A stretch of 64,000 bases of DNA from Crocinitomicaceae bacterium (GTDB taxonomy: Bacteria > Bacteroidota > Bacteroidia > Flavobacteriales_D > Crocinitomicaceae), in contig JAKVAR010000014.1 of NCBI GenBank assembly GCA_022447585.1, forward strand, positions 1-64,000. The letters run 5' to 3'. Below the pieces are notes generated by a model. It ran no database searches. It was not told the DNA's origin and saw only the letters and a list, made by a program, of their open reading frames with translations. This document shows, one piece after another, positions 2 to 17,987 of the stretch (positions are counted from its first letter, which is position 1; each line of letters starts with the position of its first letter). Both the position numbers and the translations under genes were made by a program.

Positions 2-238
2 AAGGTGAAAGATTTTACGGAAGGTTATGCTGCAGTTCGAAATGGTGCTTCTTGGGGCTTTATTGATAAATCAGGGAAAGAAGTGATATCACCTAAATTC
101 ATCAATGTCCGAAAGTTTAAAAATGGTTATGCAGCGGCATGTCAAGTAAAAGATAAGTGGGGTATAATTGATACAAAAGGTAATTGGGTGTTAGAACCAA
201 ATTATCTCCGTGTTTTAGATGTTGATGTGGTTAAATAG
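2..238 (+). CDS. WG-repeat protein, C-terminal fragment (runs off window start)
   Basis: Repeats WGFIDKSGKEVISPKF and WGIIDTKGNWVLEPNY; frame open to the window edge. Confidence 0.85.
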   Translation, partial: KVKDFTEGYAAVRNGASWGFIDKSGKEVISPKFINVRKFKNGYAAACQVKDKWGIIDTKGNWVLEPNYLRVLDVDVVK

Positions 239-14314: not shown

Positions 14315-15136
14315 TTAAGCCTGATCTATTAGTTGATGTGGTTTTGGTATATACATTACTTTCCCGTAGTTTTTGGCTATTAATGCCGTTGAAACAGTGT
14401 TACCAGTTCTCTTGTCTATTTTTCTTTGCCAAATTTCATTTGATCTAAAGTATTGTTCATCTTTCTTTATAAAAGAATGGTTCTTTTCTAATACTCTATA
14501 GGAAAATGATAGTTCCTTATCAACTAGTAACTCTCCTTCTAATAATTCGCTAGATAGCCACAAATTAATTTGATAAGTTCTATTGGTGTTATTGGTTAGT
14601 TGAAAATCTAAATAATTATAAAATACAGCGGCTCCGCTCGCCCATGGCAGAACCCTTCCGTCATCTGGAAAAGGATCTAAACTGTGATGATGCCGCTCAT
14701 TAATTGTAAGAGGAGAGTGCAAAGCCAGCCAATGCAGCATATTCGCACTTTGACAAATTCCTCCTCCAATTCCGGGGCGCGCTTTACCACCAGATATTTC
14801 CATTCCCATTTTATAGCCTTTGCGCTTTGTTGGCAGGCCTACAGTTTTGCAGAAAGAGAGCGTTTCACCTGGTTTTATAATTACGCCATTAATTCGTTTG
14901 ATTGCAATTTCTAGGTTCTTTATTTTGTTCTCCTGCATCCACATTTCAGTGTCACCAAGTTTTCTTCGAAGTCTTGATTGATGTTTTTTCACTCTGAATT
15001 CTAGTTTATCAGCGCGTTTTTCTGATGTATACACCTTATTATCGAGGTTCCATGAAACAGTTCTTCGAATTCGTTTTTCCCAAATGGAAATGAAGTAGAA
15101 GAACGGATGTCTTTGAGATAAGAGTTTTTTGGCCAT
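14315..15136 (-). CDS. VanW family protein
   Basis: IKPGETLSFCKTVGLPTKRKGYKMGMEISGGKARPGIGGGICQSANMLHWLALHSPLTINERHHHS. Confidence 0.88.
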   Translation of the reverse strand: MAKKLLSQRHPFFYFISIWEKRIRRTVSWNLDNKVYTSEKRADKLEFRVKKHQSRLRRKLGDTEMWMQENKIKNLEIAIKRINGVIIKPGETLSFCKTVGLPTKRKGYKMGMEISGGKARPGIGGGICQSANMLHWLALHSPLTINERHHHSLDPFPDDGRVLPWASGAAVFYNYLDFQLTNNTNRTYQINLWLSSELLEGELLVDKELSFSYRVLEKNHSFIKKDEQYFRSNEIWQRKIDKRTGNTVSTALIAKNYGKVMYIPKPHQLIDQA

Positions 15137-15166: not shown

Positions 15167-16777
15167 TTAGGATTTCTTGGGCTTTGCGATGAAATTCATC
15201 CATCCAGGTTTAACCCAGAATGGGTAAACAAAGAATACATGGGTAAAGAAACCTATGAGCAGTAAATAGAATGGAGCACTTCTTTTTAAAGTATAATATG
15301 CTTCATTATAACTCATATTATTTGGGTCATAGCTCGTTGGGTCTAAATACAAATACTGATCAAAATAAGGCCAATGCCAAAAGTCAAATAAGTCATTCAA
15401 TGTTATTAAAGTAAAGAATGGTATGAATGGAATTAAAAGATGCGGAATCATTAATAAAAAGGCTCCTCTTTTTCTGCGTACTGGAAGTTGCCTTTCTATG
15501 ATAGCAAAAATAAAGAGTACAATAAATTCTATCCAGAAGATACCGTATCCGATTTCTTCGCCTGCCCTTGTCACAACTAATAATATCACTGTTATTATTA
15601 GTGATAGCGCAATAATTACGACACCAACCAAGAATTCCGCCCAGTCCATATTTTTAAACAAGGCAAGAATTAAAGCGCAAATGGTGAAGAACATCAATAT
15701 ACCCCATAAGAATTCATAGCGCGTGAAAAAGAAATTTTTGTATTTACATAGCGATATATAATTTATTTCTCGAATAAAACGATGAGAGACTTTATCGAAT
15801 TCTCGAATGTAAGCGTCTTCTTGGGTATGATATACTTGGGAATATTTGTGGTTTCTAAAAAGGGTATAAAGTGCGTTCACGTCCATTTCCAGTTTTCCGC
15901 CGTTGAACTCTTCTAAATTGGATATGAGTTTCTTGAATTTATCACATATGAAAGACTCGTTTTGATAGTTTTGATAGAAATAAATTTTCTTTACAGAATC
16001 AGCACTGTAATTCTGCACTCCTTTATTAAACTCGAATAAAGATCCGTTTGGGGTGTTAGAAAATTCATAAAAGTAAATAGGGTAGAGCATCGGTCTACTC
16101 TTACTGAATACGCCACGATGGTTTTCGATGGAATCTAGTAATATTTGTCTCGAATTATTTTCTGCTTGTGTGAAGTTATCTCCAAATGATTTACTGTTTA
16201 CGATTGATTGAAAATACTCTTGCTCATTTTTGAAATAATCAAACTCTAAATAAGCTTCATTTGAGTAATGGTGATAATTATAGTCGTATTCGGAGTAATT
16301 ACCCGAACCATAGTTGAATGTAAAAAATGGCTGAGCTTCTTCGAATGATACTTTGTAATTGTTGATTTTCTCCTCTGTAATTAGATTTGCGTTTCGATAA
16401 GTCAAAACTATTCCAATGATGAACGGAATAATTACTGGTAAAATGAATTGCCCAACATAAGACGGGATTTCTATCATGTTATGTCGTAAAGTCCGATTGC
16501 CATATAGTTTTTCTGAATTATATTTTACCTGACGATAAATGATGAAAATCCACCACAAAATTGCAGGGATAAAAGCTAAACTGAACCATACTTCAACACT
16601 AACTGTTCTGTTCGGTGCAATTGGGATGATAAAGGCAAAAAATAGAGCAAGCGTAAACAGAACTGCTGCAATGCAAAGTTGTGTAAGCCATCCCATTGAC
16701 CAGGTTTTTGGGTAGTTTGAAGCCCAGAGCAAGGATTTCTTATTGAACTTGCTGATAAGTTGGGAAAAGAAATTCAT
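15167..16777 (-). CDS. Multi-TM membrane protein, probable partner of the adjacent ABC ATPase
   Basis: N-terminal TM helices, large polar region, then several TM helices; 4 bp from the ATPase gene. Confidence 0.6.
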   Translation of the reverse strand: MNFFSQLISKFNKKSLLWASNYPKTWSMGWLTQLCIAAVLFTLALFFAFIIPIAPNRTVSVEVWFSLAFIPAILWWIFIIYRQVKYNSEKLYGNRTLRHNMIEIPSYVGQFILPVIIPFIIGIVLTYRNANLITEEKINNYKVSFEEAQPFFTFNYGSGNYSEYDYNYHHYSNEAYLEFDYFKNEQEYFQSIVNSKSFGDNFTQAENNSRQILLDSIENHRGVFSKSRPMLYPIYFYEFSNTPNGSLFEFNKGVQNYSADSVKKIYFYQNYQNESFICDKFKKLISNLEEFNGGKLEMDVNALYTLFRNHKYSQVYHTQEDAYIREFDKVSHRFIREINYISLCKYKNFFFTRYEFLWGILMFFTICALILALFKNMDWAEFLVGVVIIALSLIITVILLVVTRAGEEIGYGIFWIEFIVLFIFAIIERQLPVRRKRGAFLLMIPHLLIPFIPFFTLITLNDLFDFWHWPYFDQYLYLDPTSYDPNNMSYNEAYYTLKRSAPFYLLLIGFFTHVFFVYPFWVKPGWMNFIAKPKKS

Positions 16778-16781
16778 AATG

Positions 16782-17987
16782 TTAGTCGCTAAAAAGTTGA
16801 ATAGTACTGTTCGTAATGTCTCTGAAGTAAGTGAGTTCTAGGCCCGAATCGAGAAGAGTTCGAATCATGTCTGACGAAGAATGGGTTTTATCAAATTTAA
16901 TGTTGTTTACTTTAGCAGAAAGATTTACAGAGTTAACACCTTTAATATTAAGTAATAAGCGACCCAAATCATCAGGGTGTTTCGCTAGTGAAAATTCAAT
17001 TATTCCTTCCTCCCGTGTTTCCTCAAATTCTGATTTTAGTCCGCTAAAAATTGGTTTTCCGTTCTTCAAGAAAAGGATTTTGTCTGCAATCTGTTCAACC
17101 TCATGTAGTTGCTGAGAAGTCAATAGAACTCCTATGGGATGAATAGAGCTATTTGCAAAAAATCGAAGGTCATCTAACAGGTATTGCGTTGCTTGTATAT
17201 CTAGGTTCGCAAGAGGCTCATCTAGTATTAAAATGTCAGGTTCCCAAACCAACATTTTAGCGAGTTCAAAGCGCAACTTATATCCTGTTGAGATTTGATT
17301 CCATGTTAGGCCTGTGAAAGCAGAAAGCCCCATTCGATGAATTACATATTCTACAATCTCATCATTTTTAGCCCCTTTAAACCCATGAATGGCAGCGAAA
17401 AAAGTCAGGTTCTCCATTAACGTCCCTCGCCATTTTGGAATGCGTTGAGGAATGAAAGCAGTTCTGTTTTTCCGTTTATATTGATCTTCTGCCGCAATGT
17501 CTGCAAGGTTGTAATTGTATGTAATTTGTCCAGTGTCTCGCGTAATTTCTTCTTGAAGTAGACGAAGGAATGTCGTTTTACCATTGCCATTTTCGCCGAC
17601 AACACCAACAATATTCCCTTTGTCGATATCCATATCTAATGGTCCAAAAGAAAACGCTTTGGCACGGTGAAGAAAAGTTTTTGTTAGGTTTCTAATTTGA
17701 ATTAGATGTTCCGTGTTTTGCTCACTATTTGGATCTACGACTTTCTCCAGTTGACTAAGAATTTCATTGATTTTCGATTTAAAATGTGTTCTTTCGGTCG
17801 CCTCTAGTTCTTGCTGACCAAGAGATTTAGATAAGTTATATTTTTTCCTTAATGCGATACTGCTCGCATATTGCTGAGATTCTCTTGAGTAATACCATGC
17901 AAAGTCCAATAAACGTTTGGTCGCATTTTCAATATTATTACTTAATAAGTATTGCTTGATTTCACTCGTGATCTGTGCAGTGCTCAT
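16782..17987 (-). CDS. ABC ATPase with N-terminal helical (EAD-like) extension
   Basis: Walker A GENGNGKTTFLRLL, signature ISTGYKLRFELAKML, Walker B DILILDEPLANLD; about 85-residue helical N-terminus before the ABC core. Confidence 0.88.
   Translation of the reverse strand: MSTAQITSEIKQYLLSNNIENATKRLLDFAWYYSRESQQYASSIALRKKYNLSKSLGQQELEATERTHFKSKINEILSQLEKVVDPNSEQNTEHLIQIRNLTKTFLHRAKAFSFGPLDMDIDKGNIVGVVGENGNGKTTFLRLLQEEITRDTGQITYNYNLADIAAEDQYKRKNRTAFIPQRIPKWRGTLMENLTFFAAIHGFKGAKNDEIVEYVIHRMGLSAFTGLTWNQISTGYKLRFELAKMLVWEPDILILDEPLANLDIQATQYLLDDLRFFANSSIHPIGVLLTSQQLHEVEQIADKILFLKNGKPIFSGLKSEFEETREEGIIEFSLAKHPDDLGRLLLNIKGVNSVNLSAKVNNIKFDKTHSSSDMIRTLLDSGLELTYFRDITNSTIQLFSD

Follow-up and report, generated by a model that had tools for sequence, protein, structure and literature searches.

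The window analysed here, a stretch of 64,000 nucleotides of Crocinitomicaceae DNA, carries on its minus strand a gene coding for an ABC ATPase and, 4 bases further, a gene coding for a membrane protein, hereafter its partner. The ATPase gene (16782-17987) starts with an ATG and encodes a 401-amino-acid protein in which three domains can be distinguished. The features of this gene pair are as follows:

16782..17987, minus strand: ABC ATPase with an N-terminal helical domain (Pfam ABC_tran, E 7.5e-22; AlphaFold, mean pLDDT 86 for the full protein)
17733..17987, minus strand: N-terminal four-helix domain, residues 1-85 (AlphaFold; recurs N-terminally in the same ABC family)
17034..17708, minus strand: ABC nucleotide-binding domain, about residues 94-318 (Pfam, family alignment, AlphaFold)
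16788..17009, minus strand: C-terminal alpha/beta domain of the NosF/PmtC type, about residues 327-400 (DSSP of the model; Foldseek)
15167..16777, minus strand: partner membrane protein, 536 aa, eight transmembrane (TM) segments (layout prediction; conserved beside the ATPase in relatives)

The ABC ATPase and its membrane partner

The ABC_tran match spans residues 116-260 of the ATPase, and about 90 residues therefore stand before the ABC core. The nucleotide-binding domain contains a Walker A motif (GENGNGKTT, residues 131-139), a signature-like STGYK (233-237) and a Walker B motif (ILILDEP, 252-258), all of them invariant or near-invariant across 18 family members. Searches with Foldseek matched the modeled protein to NosF (7osf/7o14), PmtC (6xji), TM_1403 (4yer) and ABCA, in some cases including the C-terminal domain. 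ATPases of the DrrA/NosF/PmtC/ABCA type, which are among these best matches, also combine a nucleotide-binding domain with a C-terminal alpha/beta domain, and the window ATPase resembles the DrrA/NosF/PmtC type further in having the Walker A, signature and Walker B motifs and an adjacent membrane subunit. DrrA obtained the top NCBIfam score, yet far under the DrrA cut-off. Three features set the window family apart from this type: the additional N-terminal four-helix domain, the presence of STGYK or SSGYK where the LSGGQ signature is usual, and a partner with eight TM segments and no detectable ABC-2 membrane family. PADLOC returned nothing for the N-terminal domain; its sole notable match, to mad3 at residues 230-310, falls in the ATPase core and was read as generic ABC similarity.

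The partner is predicted to comprise three TM segments, a loop of about 229 residues and five further TM segments, a layout that is near-invariant among the partners of relatives. The distribution of charges suggests that both ends are cytoplasmic and that the loop between TM3 and TM4 is periplasmic; a large loop at this place is reminiscent of LptF/LptG. The partner follows the ATPase in three close orthologue loci, in twelve wider loci with or without the N-terminal domain (two of these loci being incomplete) and in most of the loci read later. It recurs in many Bacteroidota although it has no match in the family databases searched (Pfam and NCBIfam), and no solved structure was matched by sequence. 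Since it belongs to no recognisable transporter family, it is from the ATPase and the eight-TM layout that we infer transport by the two-gene unit. The remaining neighbours differ between loci and are mostly housekeeping genes (alaS, dnaK, leuS and others, as judged by eye). A gene directly downstream in the window on the same strand (14315-15136) encodes a VanW-like protein (Pfam VanW, 4e-39); we did not include it in the ABC unit because it occupies this place in the window only and not in the orthologue loci.

The N-terminal domain and its distribution

A preliminary description of this DNA had placed an extension before the ABC core, and the extension was borne out: the stretch quoted there corresponds to residues 6-83, coded within 17720-17987. 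AlphaFold predicted four helices (residues 3-15, 19-33, 38-55 and 63-83/84) both in the full protein and in the domain modeled alone, the latter with a pLDDT of about 92. The domain is 41-45% identical in three orthologues. Given this conservation and the confidence of the predicted helices, the extension is conserved protein rather than the product of a mis-called start. Searches of the PDB by sequence returned short helical matches only, and a PDB fold search returned no significant match, the Death-domain fold being absent among the matches listed.

When genomes of the order (295) and of the class (388) were searched with the domain profile, none yielded more than a single match. The matching open frames are nearly all some 380-440 aa long, and the matches that were read fall at the N-terminus of the same ABC ATPase. 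The window-type domain and a shorter type with the pattern LxxGDxxLGxRxLxDCVLDT are homologous and belong to a single family (hhalign 96.6%, P 5e-10). One ATPase clade, with proteins of 302-306 aa, lacks the domain, and in a tree of the core only, whose root is unplaced, domain-bearing and domain-less members are split by a 100/99 branch. The partner differs between the two groups as well, its TM3-TM4 loop measuring 229-307 residues where the ATPase carries the domain versus 150-159 residues where it does not (loci L082-L093 and the window), a correlation that rests on a single phylogenetic split. The N-terminal domain is thus a routine component of one Bacteroidota ABC ATPase family and no accidental fusion. 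To call its attachment to a transporter ATPase unexpected, as had been done, is misleading, because the domain is routine there and this family is the only home found for it, barring one weak match. The latter (L081, G655:C216:17786-17986) is the sole match outside an ABC-sized frame; it lies in a frame of 2049 aa and covers profile positions 18-84 (E 5.7e-4).

Resemblance to effector-associated domains

The domain had also been described as having a layout like that of EAD11, one of the effector-associated domains (EADs) of conflict systems. As expected of an EAD, it is small, non-enzymatic, alpha-helical and located at a protein terminus; EAD11 (Pfam PF19964) is likewise all-helical, terminal, about 80 residues long and likely made of four helices. 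Pfam profiles matched the window ATPase below threshold, with EAD9 (PF19962) at E 0.015 (15.5 bits against a cut-off of 25) and EAD11 at E 0.026 (14.9 bits against 26), both about 10 bits short. The two matches cover separate parts of the domain: EAD9 only 26 residues, in the last helix, a match that no other scanned member showed; EAD11 residues 6-54. EAD11 reappeared below threshold in two distant members, L094 (E 0.046) and L117 (E 0.015), in a shared register (window 6-54 on profile positions 2-49, L094 8-57 on 3-51, L117 6-45 on 7-45). None of the family members scanned exceeded the EAD11 or EAD9 cut-off, and most gave nothing or scattered noise; matches to CARD_2, DUF7149 and other Pfam families in one or two members were likewise taken as noise.

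Genuine EAD11 domains were gathered from Bacteroidota genomes for profile-profile comparison with hhalign. The four-member window clade matched EAD11 at 70-71% (P about 4e-5) over 70 collinear columns, the same clade with L104 added at 90% (P 1.7e-6) over 72 columns, and the full 39-member family at 89% (P 2.3e-6) over 43 columns, with scores of 27-34. These scores are above those of all the profile controls: column shuffling of the window clade (200 replicates) gave a maximum of 18.5 and shuffling of the full family (150 replicates) one of 13.5, while 61 windows taken from the ATPase core and the partner families did not exceed 15.7. Among 900 random protein windows compared as single sequences the best, a TPR hairpin, scored 19.3; when treated in the same way, L094 and all but one of the four window-clade members scored higher than every one of these windows, and most other family members did not stand out from them. 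The likeness is weak but above chance, and borderline rather than imaginary: no Pfam EAD match attains its cut-off, yet the signal between profiles is collinear and exceeds the controls. Four remote but true EAD11 sequences, used as a positive control, scored 92 against the remaining EAD11s, about three times the score of the N-terminal domain. The N-terminal domain is thus not an ordinary EAD11; the profiles would be compatible with a remote relation and also with a generic helical hairpin.

Both origins can be reconciled with the role that we favour below. On the first, which we regard as a tentative possibility, the domain would be a remote EAD11 homologue, co-opted to dimerise the ATPase homotypically inside its own transporter, with no external effector. 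The order and lengths of the helices look alike, judging from sequence, and the family-wide P of 2.3e-6, above shuffles and unrelated windows, lies below the pairwise P < 1e-4 used as the criterion for EAD-EAD edges (PMC8195603). However, a pairwise P of 2e-6 amounts to an E of about 0.06 against 25,000 families, the family-wide match is confined to about 43 columns, from helix 1 into the beginning of helix 3, and no members but the window clade with L104 also match EAD11 in its second half (RYN...LG...NRI...LL). The second origin, towards which we lean slightly, is that the domain shares with EAD11 only a generic helical-hairpin pattern (L-x-x-G-D-x-x-x-A-x-x-x-L-L) and no ancestry. EAD11 itself weakly matches TPR proteins such as kinesin light chain and Rap phosphatase and scores 18.6 against the TPR profile; the top random window was a TPR hairpin; the reciprocal search retrieved no EAD11; and the fold search in the PDB was without significant match. 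Against this, the N-terminal domain scores only 9-14 with the TPR profile, well below its score with EAD11. Membership of the domain in the TPR family was rejected on this ground.

Genomic context and the proposed role of the domain

According to Kaur et al. 2020 (PMC7159879), the defining mark of an EAD is that the domain recurs on effector or signalling proteins, which are frequently encoded in one operon with it. The preliminary description had noted that such domains usually couple a sensor or effector to a partner with a cognate EAD, and had suggested that the fusion could mark a recruited or regulated membrane complex. A profile search of the window's own genome found no second copy of the domain, the next best match having an E of 0.11, and neither EAD11 nor EAD9 was detected above cut-off in that genome, which leaves the ATPase with no detected cognate EAD protein there. 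One EAD11 match on contig C11 (E 0.17) was discounted; it concerns a TPR-like membrane protein of 238 aa beside recF-like and ribH-like genes (by eye). In the loci read, the ABC unit has ordinary neighbours and no conserved linkage to conflict genes, sensors or effectors. Unlike EAD11, the domain is attached to a transporter ATPase, falls below the cut-off in every scanned member, and occurs without cognate copies or a conserved effector or conflict-system context. A literature search for EAD11 together with ABC transporters retrieved nothing relevant.

The two families also tend to occur in different genomes. Among the relatives and in the phylum sample, no genome that carries the ABC family also had an EAD11 above cut-off, and only one of 17 EAD11-bearing genomes, G539, possesses the ABC family. 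When 15 EAD11-bearing genomes were searched with the window-clade profile, the best match was the ABC protein of G539 (E 0.03) and not their many EAD11s. In the EAD11-rich genome G539 (L129, G539:C131, 6073-6820 and 7462-10204), a TIR gene continued by EAD11 coding sequence stands tail-to-tail with the ABC unit, some 640 bases separating its end from the partner gene. It shows TIR_2 (E 3.5e-14) followed by EAD11 (E 2e-15), its second half being in another frame. With about eight EAD11 matches in the 6.1 Mb of this genome, we estimate the chance of such proximity at roughly 1%, for a single case among many loci looked at, and the adjacency is possibly due to chance.

A true EAD11-type adaptor, whose homotypic contact with the cognate EAD of an effector or sensor would recruit the latter to a membrane complex, would account for this gene, for the sub-threshold EAD11 matches that share one register in three family members and for the hhalign match, which reaches 90% across 72 collinear columns. 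We consider it very improbable, given that the window's own genome holds neither a second copy of the domain nor an EAD11 above cut-off, that the ABC family and EAD11 are so largely found apart, that in EAD11-rich genomes the profile retrieves an ABC relative instead of EAD11s, and that genuine remote EAD11s score 92 where the domain scores 27-34. The recruitment of an effector is not supported in the window's own genome; the profile signal and the G539 gene leave some room for an adaptor link. A broader proposal appears unlikely, namely that the Bacteroidota ABC ATPase acquired, or gave rise to, a homotypic domain of the EAD11-like type, which would control assembly of the ATPase or link the transporter to EAD11 effectors where these are present, a link at which the TIR-EAD11 gene of G539 might hint. 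Of what the preliminary description advanced, some EAD similarity persists and the functional reading is unsupported; the domain is a standard part of one ABC family, which is half of the outcome that the description had named as refuting.

We thus propose, as the probable explanation, that the four helices at the N-terminus form a cytoplasmic domain intrinsic to the ATPase subunit of a so far uncharacterised family of two-gene ABC transporters in Bacteroidota, where this domain would regulate or stabilise assembly and would not act as a conflict-system adaptor. Two ATPase subunits may dimerise beneath two copies of the eight-TM partner, and this dimer would drive a cycle of export or mechanotransmission acting on the periplasmic loop of the partner. 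From its position and conservation, the domain most likely contributes to the regulation or assembly of this machine, either through the ATPase dimer or by docking to cytoplasmic segments of the partner, and would not recruit a separate EAD-bearing effector; it may perhaps share a helical ancestor with EAD11. A possible link to conflict systems thereby gives way to an unnamed two-gene transporter family of Bacteroidota whose ATPase has a helical domain of its own. Were the remote relation to EAD11 true, it would hint at an origin of some effector-associated domains among the ordinary helical domains through which membrane machines make homotypic contacts.

For contrast, what is likely a genuine EAD11 system occurs in a genome of the window's own taxonomic family (L027, in G036), where a 205-aa frame encoding an EAD11 protein comes directly after a gene for a caspase-like, C14-type peptidase (by eye).
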